A stretch of DNA of 32,404 nucleotides, taken from IMG/VR virus record IMGVR_UViG_3300033148_008487, positions 1 through 32,404 of that record; one strand, given 5' to 3'. This document shows, piece by piece, positions 148 to 24,622 of this stretch (its first letter is position 1; each line of letters starts with the position of its first letter). A model generated the notes under the pieces. The model was not told where the DNA came from. It worked only from the letters and a program-made list of their open reading frames with translations, and searched no databases. Made by a program: the position numbers and the translations under genes. The DNA comes from a virus.

Positions 148-175
148 GTGTCCACACGGGCACGCAGTGTGTTCT

Positions 176-188
176 AAATGGCACAAAA
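176..188 (+). repeat. Transposase end-binding site L3
   Basis: AAATGGCACAAAA again, 41 bp from L2 and in the same orientation. L2 and L3 share 16 identical bases (CTAAATGGCACAAAAG). The rest of 189-435 shows no gene that I can support, only a short local repetition of cggacatcgg near 275-305. Confidence 0.75.
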
Positions 189-438
189 GCTATCAATTGC
201 CAAAGTGTTTAAGAAGTGTTTAAAACCCCGCCAAACTGCCCATAGCTCGAAATCGATAGCGAGCAAAACGTCGCAATTTACGGACATCGGTCGCGGACAT
301 CGGACATGGGAAAAGACATTGGTTTTGCCTGAGGAATAAAAATTTTTCAATAAGACATACACTCCCCGCCCGATTTTCGACGAATTTTTCAAAGAACCGG
401 ATACTACATACCTACAACGAATTTTTTATTTAAGATAC

Positions 439-454
439 TGGCACGCTTTTTGCT
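439..454 (+). promoter_or_regulatory. Sigma-54 (RpoN) -24/-12 promoter
   Basis: TGGCACG, four bases, then TTGCT matches the sigma-54 consensus TGGCACG-N4-TTGCW at every conserved base, with the GG and GC pairs spaced canonically. It faces inward and would start transcription near 465, just ahead of a run of hairpins and opposite in direction to the late operon that ends at 662. I saw no second full match in the window. Its TGGCAC core also resembles the transposase site, so part of the match could be a degenerate end site, although the TTGC half is not part of that motif. Confidence 0.55.
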
Positions 455-464
455 TATGCCAATA

Positions 465-640
465 TTTATTTTTTACCACCGCTTCGGCAGCGGATAATTA
501 GCTATCACAAGTTCAGTCCGGTCGCGAGCCTTCGACCTCTTGTCGCGAGAGACCGAGTACTTAACTTTCACCTTTACCCTGGACAATCCTTTATATAATT
601 TCCGAATCTCGGGGCCTGTTTTTTGTCCAGGATAAAGTAT
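465..640 (+). ncRNA. Candidate structured untranslated RNA at the left end
   Basis: The stretch downstream of the sigma-54-like promoter has no plausible reading frame (the longest from the first ATG is 13 codons) but holds three hairpins in a row. They are CCGCT/AGCGG at 479-493, TCGCGA/TCGCGA plus CGG/CCG at 519-555, and a long stem at 572-637. No clear U-tract terminator follows, so the 3' end is a guess. It may be a regulatory RNA, an antisense RNA to the end of the late operon, or simply 3' structure of the leftward mRNA. The family is not recognised. Confidence 0.3.
572..637. repeat. 15-bp inverted repeat beyond the end of the late operon
   Basis: CTTTACCCTGGACAA at 572-586 pairs with TTGTCCAGGATAAAG at 623-637, with one mismatch and a 36-base loop. 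A further ACTTAA/TTAAGT pairing lies outside it. It sits about 25 bp beyond the stop of the last leftward gene, so it could stabilise that mRNA's 3' end, form part of the candidate RNA, or act as a DNA site. There is no T-run on the leftward strand to call it an intrinsic terminator. Confidence 0.5.
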
Positions 641-661: not shown

Positions 662-1135
662 TTATGCCGCGTTCAAGACAAGCACATCGGTTGTCTTGTT
701 GTAACTGTTTTTGCTAAGCCTAGTCGGTTCCGGCGGTGCGATGTGCACGTGCACGGTTACTTCCTCAGGCGTGCCGGTGTGAGCATTGCCGAGCGAATCG
801 TAGGCCTTGAAGCCAAAGTTCCATGCACCGCAGGCGGCTACCTGGTGTCCGGCCTCGATAACAGCAGAGCCATATCCAAAAGGGAACAACCCAAAGGGCA
901 TCTCGCCGAAGCCGGCGGTCCCCATAGGATGAGGCTCACCGAATCGGAACTGACCGAATGGAGCGTAGCCAAATCCATAGCAGCCGGCACCGCCGGGGAA
1001 CAACTCAAATATCTGATTGTTTAAGGGGCTGTCCCAGTCAATACTGCCGACCCCGTTGTTGGAATGTAACTGCATATAATCACCCGGCTCGTAACCGAGA
1101 GGCACAATAAACTGGATTGCAATTACCGCACTCAT
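662..1135 (-). CDS. Gly/Phe-rich tail-tip protein, last gene of the late operon
   Basis: This 157-residue protein of unknown family is the last gene of the late operon. Its middle is very rich in Gly, Phe and Pro, with repeated FG-containing units (about residues 52-90: GFGYAPFG, FRFGEP, GFGEMPFG, LFPFGYG). The C-terminal part looks like a small beta domain. The start overlaps the stop of the upstream tail gene (ATGA) with a GAGGTG ribosome site 8 bases ahead, so the two are translationally coupled. Position after the hub-like protein suggests a tail-tip or receptor-contact role, but no domain was recognised. FG-rich turns of this kind are seen in some phage tip proteins and could contact a receptor; this is inference only. 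Confidence 0.7.
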   Translation of the reverse strand: MSAVIAIQFIVPLGYEPGDYMQLHSNNGVGSIDWDSPLNNQIFELFPGGAGCYGFGYAPFGQFRFGEPHPMGTAGFGEMPFGLFPFGYGSAVIEAGHQVAACGAWNFGFKAYDSLGNAHTGTPEEVTVHVHIAPPEPTRLSKNSYNKTTDVLVLNAA

Positions 1136-3690: not shown

Positions 3691-5130
3691 TCAGTCCTGA
3701 CTAAATCTCGGTCCGCGTTCGTCGCTGCCGATTCGAGGGTAATAGTTAGTGCTTTGATCGTTTATGATTATAGGCGGGCTTTCAGGGCGGATATTTCCCC
3801 ACGCAAAAGGCGTAGTCCATCCAGCCAGATCCCCCGAACTAAGACCGAAGCCAGCCTTTATTTGTTCGAACTTTTTTTGTGTTTGAATTACCGCTTCAGG
3901 CACCCCTTTTAGCCGCATCGCTTTTTCATAAGCTTTAAGATAAACATTCCATCGCATCGCCCCGATGTCGCCGCCTTTGATATTCGCCAGTTCAACATCG
4001 AGCAGGCGGGTCTGTTCTTCAAGCCTGGCCCGTTCATCAGTCCCCATCAGATCGGCGATCATGTCCTGTGTGATATCAAACTGGCCGGTATCGGCTCCGA
4101 CAACATTGCCAACCGTCTGCATCATCGCAGCCGGATTTTGTAGGATGGATAAAAGAACGGGTGCTCCTTCACGCCCGGCTATTAGTTCAGCATGGCCCAA
4201 CGAAAATTTTCCCGATTGAAACCGCTGTGAGAGGCGAGCGATTTTTTCAAAAAAATCCATCCCCTTATTTATTCCGAACCTTTTCAACAATCTTTGCCCC
4301 TCAGGTGAGCCGCGACCCTGCAGACCCATAAACGTAGAACGCATCCCAGTTGTTGCGATTGATGCATCAGCCAATTGCGTTGTAACGTACGACCAAAGCC
4401 CTGCAGTTTCGGCACCCGATAGGCCGCCGCTCATTCCGATGGGTAAAAATTGAGGCATATAACTTGCGACATCGGCGGCGGTACCACCGGCCTCGGTGAT
4501 TGTTTGGTTTAATACATTCTGGACTCTATTGGCGTCCTGCACGCCGGTTCTTTTTGCGTACAAACTAAACATATCAATAAGGGTGCCGAGTGGCGTTGAT
4601 GGTGTGGTTCTGCCAAGCTCGAGCGCTTCGCGCAGAATGGAACTTTGTTGTTGTTCGCTCAAGCCGGCACCTTTGCTTCGCAGGGAATACCATGCACCGG
4701 CGACTTCCTGAAACGGGCGTCGCCCAAATTCCGCCAACGTCGCAACTTCTTTTTGCAGCTCAGGCCGCTCGCGAAAAAACCCGCCCAAAAATTGCAGTTC
4801 AACTAATGATTTCTGCTGCTCAGCGGCTATTCTGGCGTGTTCCTGCATAGCTTCTATTTGTGAGCGGATGGCACTGGTTACAAGTCGAATAGCGGTTGCG
4901 ATACTGGCTAGCTTGACCACCCACGAGGTGAGCGAACCGGCGAATTTACCAAACGCACCTTTTGCCGAATCGGTTGAGTTGCGAAGCTTATCAACTTCTT
5001 TAGCCCCTTTTCGGCTACTATCTTTTACCGTCTGGCCGACATTCTTTGACGACTGACCAACACTGTCGAGATCGCGTTTGGCCTTACCGGCTCCCGGAGT
5101 CTTTATATGTATGTTAATATTTTTTGACAT
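3691..5130 (-). CDS. Tape measure protein (short)
   Basis: The tape measure sets tail length and is ejected with the DNA. This 479-residue protein starts with a charged, Ser/Lys/Gly-rich helical region (1-60), a hydrophobic helix near 64-88 (SWVVKLASIATAIRLV), and then a Gln/Glu-rich helix. A block resembling phage TP901/lambda-type tape measures follows at about 215-275 (ITEAGGTAADVASYMPQF, then SGGLSGAETAGLW and IATTGMRS). At the usual 0.15 nm per residue it predicts a tail of roughly 70 nm, short for a siphovirus. It directly follows the tail tube gene by 9 bases, leaving no room for the frameshifted chaperone pair usually found there. The ribosome site is weak. Confidence 0.8.
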   Translation of the reverse strand: MSKNINIHIKTPGAGKAKRDLDSVGQSSKNVGQTVKDSSRKGAKEVDKLRNSTDSAKGAFGKFAGSLTSWVVKLASIATAIRLVTSAIRSQIEAMQEHARIAAEQQKSLVELQFLGGFFRERPELQKEVATLAEFGRRPFQEVAGAWYSLRSKGAGLSEQQQSSILREALELGRTTPSTPLGTLIDMFSLYAKRTGVQDANRVQNVLNQTITEAGGTAADVASYMPQFLPIGMSGGLSGAETAGLWSYVTTQLADASIATTGMRSTFMGLQGRGSPEGQRLLKRFGINKGMDFFEKIARLSQRFQSGKFSLGHAELIAGREGAPVLLSILQNPAAMMQTVGNVVGADTGQFDITQDMIADLMGTDERARLEEQTRLLDVELANIKGGDIGAMRWNVYLKAYEKAMRLKGVPEAVIQTQKKFEQIKAGFGLSSGDLAGWTTPFAWGNIRPESPPIIINDQSTNYYPRIGSDERGPRFSQD

Positions 5131-19965: not shown

Positions 19966-20466
19966 ATGGTTGCTTTGGCAAAAGAACCAGTCGAACTTCA
20001 GGGGACAATTAAGGATGTGGTCTGCCCGGTGTGTGCGAAGCCGCTGCCGTACCCACAAATTTGCTCACACAAAAAAGACCGCTACGGACGCGAGATAAGA
20101 ACGTATTTTGGCTGGTGCTTTTTTTGTGCGAATTCCAATTGCGATGATGCCGGCTGCGAAGTGATACAATTCAAACGCGACAACAAATGGTTTATTCATA
20201 AATACCAGCAATATGCGATAGACCGGCAACATGACACCTGCCGACCGGCCGGCAAGTGGATAACACTTAACGAGCTGCCGGAACCGGCACCCGTGGTTAC
20301 AGGTACGGGCGGTGATTATGACAAATCAATCGAGCCGGCGGTTGTAAGTATTATCGAACCACTTTATAAAATTCTAAGCAACGTAACGCAATTGTTAGGG
20401 TCGCTGCATAAAATTCTAAGCAACGTAACGCAATTGTTAGGGTCGCTGCTAAAAAAGCAAGGATGA
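19966..20466 (+). CDS. Zinc-ribbon protein with duplicated C-terminal heptads
   Basis: The 166-residue protein has paired Cys motifs, CPVC (20-23) and CFFC (51-54), with further Cys at 33, 59, 64 and 92, suggesting a zinc ribbon in the first 70 residues. The C-terminal hydrophobic region carries an exact 14-residue repeat (134-147 and 148-161, YKILSNVTQLLGSL / HKILSNVTQLLGSL). AAAGGGG lies 7 bases before ATG 19966; an upstream ATG at 19924 lacks a site. Directly before the transposase gene, it may assist transposition or act as a regulator; no family was recognised. Confidence 0.6.
   Translation: MVALAKEPVELQGTIKDVVCPVCAKPLPYPQICSHKKDRYGREIRTYFGWCFFCANSNCDDAGCEVIQFKRDNKWFIHKYQQYAIDRQHDTCRPAGKWITLNELPEPAPVVTGTGGDYDKSIEPAVVSIIEPLYKILSNVTQLLGSLHKILSNVTQLLGSLLKKQG
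20366..20449 (+). repeat. Perfect 42-bp tandem duplication inside the zinc-ribbon gene
   Basis: Bases 20366-20407 and 20408-20449 are identical (42 bp, 14 codons), so the reading frame is kept. The encoded unit is a hydrophobic heptad-like helix (KILSNVTQLLGSL). The absence of any mismatch indicates a recent event. Confidence 0.9.
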
Positions 20467-20470
20467 TCCT

Positions 20471-22402
20471 GTGAATGACTATGTAGATTCGGCTAAGGCG
20501 GCAAAACAGCTAAACATGACAGAGCGGCATGTATGCCGTATGTGCAGGGCTGGCAAATTCAAAGGTGCCGTCAAGAGCGGCGGGCAATGGCGAATTCCCC
20601 TGGCTGCTGATGCCCGGCTTTGCGGAATAAAGGGGCCTGAAGATATGCTGCAATCGCGAGAATTGCTGGATGTGCCCGCCAATAAGCGTGAAGACGCGAT
20701 TCGCAAGGTTGGTTTTATTCAGGCCTTTGAGAAATTTTCAGCGAAATTCGTGAAAGCCGGCGGCACTCGCAGCGAGGCGATGTCGGTTTTTGCCAAAAAC
20801 AACGCCGTCGGCAAAAGAAGTTTTCAACGATGGATTGTGCGTTATCGCAATCAGGGTCTTGTCGGCCTGGTTGATACGCGTGGCGGTGGTAAATTTATCA
20901 GTCAAATGATAAGTACTGAGGCGTTCGAGCTGTTTAAGTCGATGTACCTGACACCGCAGCAGTTGAGCGTCAAGATATGCTGGCAGAATATCAATTACAT
21001 AAACCGCTCGGAAAATAAGGGCTGGAAAATTCCGAGTCTGCAATTCTTTTATAAATACATAAAAGCTCAAATTCCTTTGTTTGTCGAGATTCTGCACCGC
21101 GAAGGTATCGCTGCTTACGAGGCTAAATGCGCACCATACGTTGAAAAAGACCCAAACAGCGTAGCGCCAGGGGCGGTCTGGATAGGCGATCATTCGCAAT
21201 TGAATCTGTGGATTAGGCACAGAGGCCAATGGATTCGCCCCTGGGTAACCGCCTGGCAGGACATGCGGAGCCGGGCAATCGTAGGCTATTACCTCACCGC
21301 CTCGCCCAATCAGACGACTATCCTGCTGGCGATGAAGCGGGCGATTGAAAAATACGGTCCACCTGATTCGGTTAAGATCGATAACGGCAGGGATTACGAC
21401 TCCGAGATGTGGACCGGGACTACAAAAGCGAAAAGGCGGGCGATTAAGGCCGGCTATATAGATGAGCAGATGTTAGCCGGCATTTACGCCATGATGGATA
21501 TCGGTGCATCGTTTGCAATAGCATATCATCCGCAAAGCAAGGCAATTGAGCGGTTCTTCGACACGCTTGATTGCCAATTCAGTAAAACTTTTCCGACATA
21601 TTGTGGAAAAGACACAAAACGCAAACCTGAATATTTAAAAGAGTTGTTAAAAAGCAAAAAAGCAATCGAGCAGGCGTATGACCTGGAAGGCTTGAACAAT
21701 CTTTTTGTGCAATACATCGATGCTTACAATAATGCCGCTCATCACGGCAAAGGCATGGAAGGTCAATCGCCTTTGCAGGTACTCAATAGCCGCGAATCCC
21801 GCCGTGTTGTTGCCGATGGCGTTATAGATTTATTGCTGCGAGTCTGGAGCGGCGAACTCGTTGCCGGCAAAAACGGTGTGCGATTCAAAAATATGTGGTA
21901 TGGTCAATATGATATTAAACTTATGAATTATCAGGGGAAAAAGGTACGCATCGCCTATGACCCGGACGACTTGCGAAAAGTTTATGTCTATAATTCAGCG
22001 ACTTACGAGCTGATCACAATCGCCGAGCAGAACCGACTTGTTCAATATGGATCTGCTGTTAATGAGGAGGCCCTGCGGGATGCGATGCGGCAGAAAGCAA
22101 AGGCGGTTCACCTTGCTAAATCTTATCGTGATTCGCGGTTGACAGCAAATATGGATCTTACAACTTTAACGCTTAAGGCCATGGCCGAGGGCCGCAAAGA
22201 AACCCCGCCGCCTGCGGCTGCAAATTTAAGGCCGGTGCGCACGCCGTTCGATAAACAGGTCAAGCTGCACAAAGCACTCGAACTTCAAAAACTGGTAAAA
22301 AAGGCAGCGGGTGCTGAGTCGGTAGAAACGGTTCTGGATATAGACCTGTCTTTAATGAAACCAAAGCAAAAACCCGTAAAGGTAAAATTATTCGATGACT
22401 GA
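20471..22402 (+). CDS. A: Mu A-like DDE transposase
   Basis: This 643-residue transposase should bind the end sites, pair the ends and carry out strand transfer. It begins with an excisionase/MerR-like HTH (about 5-45), then a second HTH (about 100-135). The catalytic core has WIGDHSQLNLW with Asp240, VKIDNGRDYD with Asp304, and YHPQSKAIERFF with Glu360; the second and third residues are 56 apart, as in MuA. The C-terminal part (about 430-643) should contact protein B. It starts with GTG 20471, with AAGGA 7 bases ahead; no in-frame ATG near the start is available. The stop overlaps the start of B by 8 bases. Confidence 0.93.
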   Translation: MNDYVDSAKAAKQLNMTERHVCRMCRAGKFKGAVKSGGQWRIPLAADARLCGIKGPEDMLQSRELLDVPANKREDAIRKVGFIQAFEKFSAKFVKAGGTRSEAMSVFAKNNAVGKRSFQRWIVRYRNQGLVGLVDTRGGGKFISQMISTEAFELFKSMYLTPQQLSVKICWQNINYINRSENKGWKIPSLQFFYKYIKAQIPLFVEILHREGIAAYEAKCAPYVEKDPNSVAPGAVWIGDHSQLNLWIRHRGQWIRPWVTAWQDMRSRAIVGYYLTASPNQTTILLAMKRAIEKYGPPDSVKIDNGRDYDSEMWTGTTKAKRRAIKAGYIDEQMLAGIYAMMDIGASFAIAYHPQSKAIERFFDTLDCQFSKTFPTYCGKDTKRKPEYLKELLKSKKAIEQAYDLEGLNNLFVQYIDAYNNAAHHGKGMEGQSPLQVLNSRESRRVVADGVIDLLLRVWSGELVAGKNGVRFKNMWYGQYDIKLMNYQGKKVRIAYDPDDLRKVYVYNSATYELITIAEQNRLVQYGSAVNEEALRDAMRQKAKAVHLAKSYRDSRLTANMDLTTLTLKAMAEGRKETPPPAAANLRPVRTPFDKQVKLHKALELQKLVKKAAGAESVETVLDIDLSLMKPKQKPVKVKLFDD

Positions 22403-23513
22403 CGATATAAACCAAGGGTTGGCGAGGGACGCCCGAATCGTTGCGGAAAGGATTCCAATGAATAAAGCTGAAGAAAAGCGAATAGCCGACAGGCTGAAGG
22501 CTTTTATAAAATCGCGTAAAGGCGTTTCGCAAAACACCGTCGCCGAAACACTCGGCATAAGCCGCACACTGTTGAGTCAATTCCTTAACGGCAGATATAA
22601 AGGCAACACAAAAGATGTTGTTAATAAGATAGTCAATTTTTTAGATACCATAAGCCGAATGGACCGGCGGGTCAAGGGTAAAGCATTCGTTGAAACCAGC
22701 ATAGCGAAACGAATCGGCACACTGATTACCCAGACCGAGGCGTTCAGCGATGACGAGGGCAAGATTGGCGTAATAGTCGGCGATGGTGGTCACGGCAAGA
22801 GCCACTGTTTAAGGCAATACGCCGAGGCGAACAAAAATACGGTTTACGTTGAGCTTGATGATGCGATGAATTCTACGACTGTGTTTGCCGAGATCGCAAA
22901 AAAACTTGGCATCGATTCGGACGGCTCGCTCGACAAAGTAACACGGCGATTAATTGACGCCCTGCAGAACAGGCAGATAATTGTAATGCTCGACGAGGCG
23001 TCGGGCCTGACAGTCCGGCAGTTGAATCGACTTCGTCAGATAATCGTTGTCAAATCCAGATGCCCCCTGGTCCTGGCCGGTAACCATGACCTTTTAAAGA
23101 CAATCATGCAGCCGACTACTCGGCGTGGCTTCGAATCGCTCGACCAGTTCACATCGCGTTTGATGTGTATACTGAATCTCGACGAACACGCCGCCGAAAA
23201 AGACGGTGGGCTTTATACGGTCGAGGACATCCGCCGATTGTATGAATATGGAGGTGTCAAGCTGACTATCGATGCGGTTGGGACGCTTCGGAATATTTGC
23301 AGAACGCCGAGAAGCGGCAGGCTGCGTACCTGTAGTCATGTAATCGCGGCGTTACATACCGCCGGCGTGGTGTATGAGACCGGGGCGATTGATTTGGCAC
23401 TTATTATTGCTGCGATAGAGCAGCTTGATTTGCCGGTCAGGGTACGGCTGCCTCTGGCAACCAGGCATATTGCGGAACATAAAGAACAGCAAGCGGTTGC
23501 AAGGACTGGTTAA
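22395..23513 (+). CDS. B: Mu B-like transposition ATPase (target capture)
   Basis: The 372-residue AAA+ protein has an N-terminal HTH (about 42-68: GVSQNTVAETLGISRTLLSQFLNG) as in MuB, then an ATPase domain: Walker A GDGGHGKS (129-136), Walker B IIVMLDE (195-201), a sensor-like CPLVLAGN (223-230) and an arginine-rich segment near 240-258. MuB binds target DNA and activates A. The ATG overlaps A's stop codon, ensuring coupled translation. A 21-codon frame at 23514-23579 follows but is too short to call a gene. Confidence 0.9.
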   Translation: MTDDINQGLARDARIVAERIPMNKAEEKRIADRLKAFIKSRKGVSQNTVAETLGISRTLLSQFLNGRYKGNTKDVVNKIVNFLDTISRMDRRVKGKAFVETSIAKRIGTLITQTEAFSDDEGKIGVIVGDGGHGKSHCLRQYAEANKNTVYVELDDAMNSTTVFAEIAKKLGIDSDGSLDKVTRRLIDALQNRQIIVMLDEASGLTVRQLNRLRQIIVVKSRCPLVLAGNHDLLKTIMQPTTRRGFESLDQFTSRLMCILNLDEHAAEKDGGLYTVEDIRRLYEYGGVKLTIDAVGTLRNICRTPRSGRLRTCSHVIAALHTAGVVYETGAIDLALIIAAIEQLDLPVRVRLPLATRHIAEHKEQQAVARTG

Positions 23514-23568: not shown

Positions 23569-24108
23569 ATGCTGAATAATCAGCAGATAAAACTTGTTCA
23601 AATGGCGGTCAGAGCCGCCGGGTTGCGAACCAAACACTTCGATGCCAGGTACCGGCTGCTGTTGCGGCAGTACAAACAGCCGTCTGGCGATATGGTTACG
23701 AGCTGCAAGCAACTCAACGCCATGCAGATGGAAGATCTATTAGCTATCTGCGAATCGCACGGCTGGCGGTATCCGGGCAAGCCCGCCGATCATTTCAGAA
23801 AAAAAGCTGCCAGCCGTTACACGGTTGCCAGCTTTGCGCAGCAGTCGGCGATCAAGAACCTGGCATTCGATATCGGCTGGAGCTTAGAGAATCTGTTCGA
23901 TTTTATTACAAAACAAACAAAGCACAAAGCAAGATATCTTGATCAGCTTACGCCCAAACATGCGTATGAAGTTATTGAGGCGTTAAAAGCAATTGTGAGT
24001 CGCAAACAGGGCAGGTGTTATAAAAACTTAAACGAAATCAGGGAAGATTTTACGAAAGGAGCCACGGATGCCCAAAACCAAACGTGTCAAGTCGAAACAG
24101 ACACTTAA
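23569..24108 (+). CDS. gemA: GemA / Gp16-like regulatory protein
   Basis: The 179-residue protein matches the Gp16/GemA family plan (DUF1018): an N-terminal helical segment with VRAAGLRTKHFDARYRLLL, and a middle segment with the pattern SCKQLNAMQMEDLLAICE (about 46-62). It is basic and helical throughout. In Mu, GemA alters host gene expression and DNA supercoiling. AAAGG lies just before the ATG, and its last 41 bases overlap the gam gene. Confidence 0.75.
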   Translation: MLNNQQIKLVQMAVRAAGLRTKHFDARYRLLLRQYKQPSGDMVTSCKQLNAMQMEDLLAICESHGWRYPGKPADHFRKKAASRYTVASFAQQSAIKNLAFDIGWSLENLFDFITKQTKHKARYLDQLTPKHAYEVIEALKAIVSRKQGRCYKNLNEIREDFTKGATDAQNQTCQVETDT

Positions 24109-24622
24109 GCCTATAATCGGATGGGACCAGGCCGATGAACTGGTTCGTGAGGTTGGCGGACTTCTTATCAAGATTCAGGCCGCCCAGGCAAAGGCCAAAA
24201 AAGAAATAGACGAGGTCAAGTCCGGCCTGGCACTTGAAGTCAAACCGCTGCAAAACTCAATTGCTCAACATACTGCAAGCATCGAGGCATTTGCGGTAAA
24301 TCGCAAAAAAGATTTCAAAGCCAAGCGAAGCAAAAAGCTCAACTTCGGCACGCTCGGCTGGCGAAAAAGCGTATCGATCAAAGTCAAGAAAACCACGCTT
24401 TCGCTAATCAAAAAGGTGTTCATGAAAAAGGCCGATGCCTACATTCGCATCAAAGAAAGCGTCGATAAAGAAGCGCTGGCCAAACTCACGGACGAGCAAT
24501 TAGCCAAAGTAACGGCTCGACGAGTGGTTATGGACGACTTTTTCGTTGAGCCATTTATTCCTGAAGCAATCGATTACGACTCAACGATGGCTGTGGCTAA
24601 AAAAAAGCGGAATGGAAGATGA
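24068..24622 (+). CDS. gam: Gam-like DNA-end-binding host-nuclease inhibitor
   Basis: The 184-residue protein fits Mu Gam: a basic N-terminus, a long coiled-coil region (about 28-80) and a block resembling the Gam core, FGTLGWRKSVSIKVKK followed by a helical stretch to about 165. Gam dimers bind DNA ends like Ku and shield them from exonucleases. AAAGGAG lies about 8 bases before the ATG. The stop overlaps the start of the next small gene (ATGA). Confidence 0.85.
   Translation: MPKTKRVKSKQTLKPIIGWDQADELVREVGGLLIKIQAAQAKAKKEIDEVKSGLALEVKPLQNSIAQHTASIEAFAVNRKKDFKAKRSKKLNFGTLGWRKSVSIKVKKTTLSLIKKVFMKKADAYIRIKESVDKEALAKLTDEQLAKVTARRVVMDDFFVEPFIPEAIDYDSTMAVAKKKRNGR

Follow-up and report, generated by a model that had tools for sequence, protein, structure and literature searches.

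The window, as we call the whole stretch of DNA analyzed here, is a 32,404-base IMG/VR virus record that represents a transposable phage by its gene content. It carries a Mu-type gene set (MuA transposase, MuB ATPase, GemA, and Gam), and its minus strand contains the portal, terminase, and tape-measure genes. The alignment of relatives starts at a TGTnAA terminus, so the left end of the phage is base 2 of the window, with one host base to the left of the terminus in the record. By symmetry, the right end would lie at about 32339. Transposase-type sites also occur near the right end of the window, where they are inverted, as in a Mu-type phage. The features of the left end and of the early region are as follows.

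2–5: TGTA, the phage terminus in the left-end alignment
17–32, 131–148, and 172–189, plus strand: three transposase-type end sites (AAATGGCAnAAA)
281–307, plus strand: CGGACAT direct repeats at 281, 294, and 301, candidate activator or operator sites, in the same place in most left ends
367–400: conserved block CGCCCGATTTTCGACGAATTTTTCAAAGAACCGG of the left-end alignment, an imperfect inverted repeat
439–454, plus strand: predicted sigma-54-type promoter (−24 element TGGCACG at 439–445, spacer CTTT, −12 element TTGCT at 450–454)
439–461: inverted repeat enclosing the promoter (TGGCA at 439–443, TGCCA at 457–461)
473–613, minus strand: what remains of a D12-class DNA adenine methyltransferase gene, its 3′ end of 46 codons plus stop, by homology to the gene in relative L156
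572–637: inverted repeat forming a 15-bp stem (572–586 with 623–637) that spans the deletion joint
662–1135, minus strand: ORF of 157 amino acids, conserved in relatives, with which the intact part of the leftward late operon ends, function not assigned
20471–22402: MuA-type transposase (domains DDE_2, Mu-transpos_C, and HTH_Tnp_Mu_2; phrog_310)
22395–23513: MuB-type ATPase
23569–24108: GemA
24068–24622: Gam

Positions 1–661 form the interval between the leftward late operon, which ends with gene 662–1135, and the terminus. The product of this gene had no match in Pfam, PHROG, or NCBIfam. Two further conserved elements were noticed in the interval: a strongly G-rich block (GGGTGGGAATAGGCGGGAACCGGCGGGAAATCGTGG...) at about 37–110, which separates the first two transposase-type sites and is present in every left end that extends this far, and a pair of GTTTAAnnnGTGTTTAA at 205–222, directly past the third site, in nearly all relatives. 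Elsewhere in the window, a tandem duplication of about 47 bp (AAAATTCTAAGCAACGTAACGCAATTGTTAGGGTCGCTGC...) occupies positions 20362–20452, near the end of the ORF preceding the transposase gene.

In genomes, the transposase has its closest relatives almost entirely in Planctomycetota, many of them in Phycisphaerae MAGs, and we infer from these relatives that the host of the phage belongs to the Planctomycetota. The phage resembles Mu and other transposable phages in its MuA, MuB-type ATPase, GemA, and Gam genes and in the three transposase-type sites of its left end. The layout is different. Mu early genes start near the left end, whereas in this phage that end is where the leftward late operon closes, the early genes lying in the middle. 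The end of Mu is not known to include a sigma-54 site.

The element at 439–454 combines GG at −24 and GC at −12 at the fixed spacing of sigma-54 promoters, and transcription from it is predicted to start at about 465. An exact match to TGGCACGNNNNTTGCW was found on either strand of the window only at this position and in none of 100 shuffled sequences, in agreement with the preliminary description of this DNA, which had reported a single full match to the RpoN consensus. When up to two mismatches were allowed, seven sites were found in the window compared with 6.3 expected; only the exact site at 439–454 stands out from chance.

We then compared the left end of the window with those of 15 other transposable phages related to it, drawn from IMG/VR and from MAGs of Planctomycetota. 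Relatives were collected from viral contigs and MAGs through alignments of the neighboring tail protein (A2) and of the product of gene 662–1135 (A4). As a single-sequence query, the tail protein found no relatives; an alignment of three sequences recovered them. No left end was identifiable in L285, L287, L288, or L290. One further genome, G005, has a differently arranged end region and was left out of the comparison: at G005:C1:11500–12750 (L027 1–1250), the homologue of gene 662–1135 and the tail gene lie on opposite strands, separated by end-type sites in minus orientation, which represents either another genome arrangement or an assembly joint.

The 16 left ends, including the window, were scanned for sites that have GG and GC at their positions and match 10 or more of the 12 consensus letters. 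Such a site was present in 10 of them, always on the plus strand and at the exact spacing, and the minus strands of the 16 contained none. All 12 letters are matched in the window, L156, L286, L292, and L297, 11 in L157 and L305, and 10 in L160, L291, and L299. Per-region dinucleotide shuffles give a chance of 0.5–3.2% per left end, or about 0.26 sites expected over the 16. The element anticipated by the preliminary description in related left ends thus recurs in 9 of the 15, in the same place and on the same strand. The six left ends lacking a good site are L158, L159, L161, L284, L303, and L155, the last of which keeps the −24 half (GGCACG) and has no −12 half; the more distant L289 also has no good site. 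The conserved sites adjoin the end of the last minus-strand gene, whichever gene that is. In L286, which has no cargo, the site and the stop codon of the homologue of gene 662–1135 are about 40 bp apart, and in L305, it overlaps the end of the last minus-strand gene at the contig edge.

The strongest evidence that a sigma-54 element is conserved comes from the column profile of the 10 phages, which reads RYTGGCACG-N3-TTTGC with near-random bases outside the half-sites. GGCA and TTGC are invariant on either side of the spacer, and the T before GGCA and the C after it are each present in nine phages. Part of this profile is ascertained, because the selection itself required GG, GC, and a minimum score. 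Columns outside the selection criteria are also conserved: a pyrimidine precedes TGGCAC in all 10 phages, preceded in turn by a purine in nine, and a T stands before TTGC in nine. The published extended sigma-54 consensus is YTGGCACG-N4-TTGCW, and the letters around both half-sites agree with it in the 10 phages. The 60 bp directly upstream of the site show 50–68% alignment identity between phages, and the tail proteins of the relatives are 52–62% identical to that of the window, as expected of related, clearly diverged phages.

Wider searches produced candidates that we rejected. A 15-base core, GGCACGNNNTTTGCNNNTGCC, occurred in at least 119 stretches of viral contigs, nearly all of them chance matches as judged by left-end context. 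An exact scan of viral contigs for the hairpin pattern recovered only an already known relative. An exact sigma-54 match in G004 (466–481, L024) was discarded, as it lies in coding-like sequence and at the opposite end of its phage.

A host lacking RpoN, which the preliminary description had named as evidence against its proposal, is not what we found: the RpoN DNA-binding domain is present in all nine tested host MAGs of relatives, the host of the window itself being taken from these relatives. The same MAGs contain 31 exact consensus sites, two of which are phage sites, compared with five for the reversed pattern. A survey of sigma-54 regulons likewise predicts sigma-54 regulation in Planctomycetota (PMC12316311). 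We also searched for an activator encoded by the phages, and no Sigma54_activat domain was detected in 15 phage records, several of which are fragments. Candidate upstream sites are the CGGACAT repeats, which lie about 160–185 bp before the predicted start and could be a phage-specific operator or enhancer, and the block at 367–400. Both are present also in left ends that have no promoter. L286 and L297 carry other repeats (GCGAAACC and ACGAAGCGCAAT, respectively) at the position of CGGACAT.

Between gene 662–1135 and the left-end block, the phages have a cargo slot, seen in L160/G003, L155–L157, L284, L291, L292, L297, L299, L303, and L305, which can hold an adenine methyltransferase gene, a cytosine methyltransferase gene, both, unknown genes, or none. 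L155, L156, and L157 have an intact minus-strand gene of about 260 codons at this position, whose product in L156 is a D12-class N6 adenine DNA methyltransferase (PF02086, E 1.5e-27). In G003/L160, the slot holds a cytosine-5 methyltransferase (PF00145) that ends with nearly the same short tail, LIIANYPLPKRR; this adenine methyltransferase-like tail marks a recombination joint. L158 and L161, where the sigma-54 site is lacking, have plus-strand cargo at the slot.

A separate observation in the slot is a conserved RNA of about 79 nucleotides with three predicted stems, located between gene 662–1135 and the methyltransferase cargo, directly upstream of the methyltransferase genes and sense to them. 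Copies were found at L156:8664–8742, L160:8683–8761, L291:531–610, L299:4785–4864, L157:8623–8703, L155:8661–8741, L284:1393–1471 (minus strand), L305:5598–5678 and 4679–4760, and L289:1362–1439. The second copy in L305 precedes a second D12 methyltransferase. RNAalifold gave 19 pairs, seven of them with compensatory changes, and a slightly unfavorable net covariation term. A covariance model built from seven of the RNAs recovered those of L299 and L289 and the second copy in L305, none of which was in the model, at 54–86 bits; nothing similar was found in Rfam. The RNA precedes adenine as well as cytosine methyltransferase genes and is a candidate leader element, possibly a new leader RNA or riboswitch. 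The window has no copy because its methyltransferase gene has been deleted.

What is left of that gene accounts for the sequence downstream of the promoter. The minus strand is open over 473–634 (53 codons), and the last 46 residues (476–613) are methyltransferase-like: from 613 down to 473, this strand reads PEIRKLYKGLSRVKVKVKYSVSRDKRSKARDRTELVIANYPLPKRW followed by a stop, 80% identical over 46 residues to the C terminus of the L156 enzyme. By this homology, the window is a derivative that lost most of the methyltransferase gene and kept its last 46 codons. The preliminary description had seen here 200 bases devoid of a reading frame, which the open frame contradicts, folding as hairpins. 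The 15-bp stem is indeed present, and the overall fold exceeds shuffled sequences only modestly (z −1.86 on the plus strand and −2.16 on the minus strand). One arm of the stem (572–586) consists of methyltransferase codons, the other (623–637) lies past the joint, and the homology ends between them; the stem cannot form locally in relatives with the whole methyltransferase gene. Its near-perfect inverted copy is probably the scar of a template switch. The first hairpin, CCGCTTCGGCAGCGG, codes for part of YPLPKRW.

The preliminary description had also proposed an RpoN-dependent noncoding RNA at 465–640, into which the promoter-like element does point and where folding is slightly better than in shuffled sequence. 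That reading did not survive the comparison, and we now regard it as very improbable. The region is what is left of a cargo gene on the opposite strand; relatives lack it, have other sequence in its place, or contain it within an intact cargo gene, and we found no homologous RNA whose pairing is conserved. The main stem is confined to the deletion joint, which it spans, and 465–640 matched no Rfam family. Because the sequence downstream of the element differs between phages, we conclude from the alignments that there is no conserved RpoN-dependent noncoding RNA at this position.

The remaining alternatives concern the element itself. Chance without function is very improbable too: a single left end has a 0.5–3% probability of such a site, but nine independent repeats in the same place and on the same strand of diverged phages do not fit this explanation. 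The element might instead be an operator or assembly site for a phage repressor or the transposase, since TGGCAC resembles the transposase site core AAATGGCAC and the element lies within an inverted repeat, inside a left-end block rich in conserved sites, and has TGGCA in common with the end sites. However, the AAA flanks found before and after the transposase sites are missing, conservation is asymmetric, and both halves fit the sigma-54 consensus at a fixed spacing. In L286, moreover, the end sites read TATATGGCGG and the element still reads TGGCACG, so the two do not vary jointly, and we consider this role quite improbable. Somewhat more can be said for the inverted repeat 439–443/457–461, which encloses the site and was absent from the preliminary description. 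A hairpin around the site is found in nine of the 10 phages in differing registers (mean z −1.8 on the plus strand and −2.2 on the minus strand), and the pair beside GGCA varies as T-A, C-G, or A-T, with L155, which has the stem and lacks the −12 half, included. These complementary changes just past the last stop codon of the late operon suggest that the stem is probably also under selection, perhaps as a 3′-end structure of that operon. It does not follow that a hairpin serving as mRNA end or terminator was selected and that the resemblance to sigma-54 promoters is incidental. L297 lacks a stem yet has a 12/12 promoter; the stem therefore does not account for the promoter, and we rejected it as the sole explanation. 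The unpaired TTTGC and the spacing are invariant while the stem register shifts between phages, and on the minus strand, the stem is not followed by a U-run and gave no terminator call. An incidental resemblance is therefore improbable.

The main rival to transcription as the function is a site for binding only, at which a closed RNA polymerase-sigma-54 complex would, regardless of initiation, act as a roadblock or insulator for late transcription that leaves through the left end or would shape the transposition end. The sigma-54 holoenzyme is inactive when promoter-bound, and most intragenic sites in E. coli are silent (PMC4591121). The position just past the last late-operon stop codon and the nonconserved downstream product also suit this role. 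On the other hand, no roadblock effect was observed in E. coli (PMC4591121). The conserved −12 element and the exact spacing are compatible with initiation and do not require it. We consider binding alone unlikely.

Together, these data make it quite probable that 439–454 is a selected sigma-54 promoter. Because no RNA product is conserved, we favor transcription itself as its function. The model that we find rather likely overall is a host-gated inward promoter, fixed in the left end, whose transcription opposes the leftward late operon. The promoter would be a fixed inner part of the left end in this phage family, adjoining the transposase sites. With an active host enhancer-binding protein, the host's RNA polymerase-sigma-54 would initiate near 465 and transcribe inward, yielding an RNA antisense to the late operon's 3′ end; in the window, this RNA would extend through the methyltransferase remnant and then gene 662–1135. 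Such convergent transcription may keep late or cargo expression, or readthrough into the left end, in check depending on host physiology; that the role of the promoter is to interfere with the late operon is a tentative proposal. We infer that the promoter is used, that it acts on the late operon, and that it responds to an enhancer-binding protein of the host, the last because the 15 phage records yielded no activator domain. A further reading, which we regard as rather unlikely, is that transcription running inward from 465 ties either transposition or late expression to the host RpoN regulon without a conserved RNA product. The promoter, gated by host stress or nutrients, would then be hard-wired into the transposition end and act through negative supercoiling left at the left end or through late-operon interference.

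The site shares with known sigma-54 promoters the GG at −24, the GC at −12, the spacing, the letters of the extended consensus, and the presence of RpoN in the hosts of the relatives. It differs in lying in a transposition end, facing the 3′ end of an operon rather than the start of a gene, and in having no conserved gene or RNA downstream. In a genome-wide study in E. coli, most sigma-54 sites showed no transcriptional activity, but interference by those that are active was not excluded (PMC4591121). The antisense and intragenic sites of that study resemble the phage site in orientation, in serving no obvious gene, and in the conservation of some positions; they are scattered in the host, whereas the phage site is held in place while neighboring genes are exchanged. 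In the Salmonella prophage Fels-2, four genes were down with RpoN in a microarray (PMC3844500); prophage expression changes with RpoN there as well, but no conserved phage-end promoter was described. In the open literature, outside of which most subscription journals fall, we found no precedent for sigma-54 in transposable phages or planctomycete prophages and came across no phage family described as conserving a sigma-54 promoter.

Promoters through which phages give control to host sigma-54 seem little described; in the open literature, we found only incidental links between RpoN and prophages. That the site is kept across diverged phages despite gene swaps suggests that transposable phages of Planctomycetota read a physiological signal of the host at their end. 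The element provides a direct test of the ability of antisense sigma-54 transcription to control mobile DNA elements.
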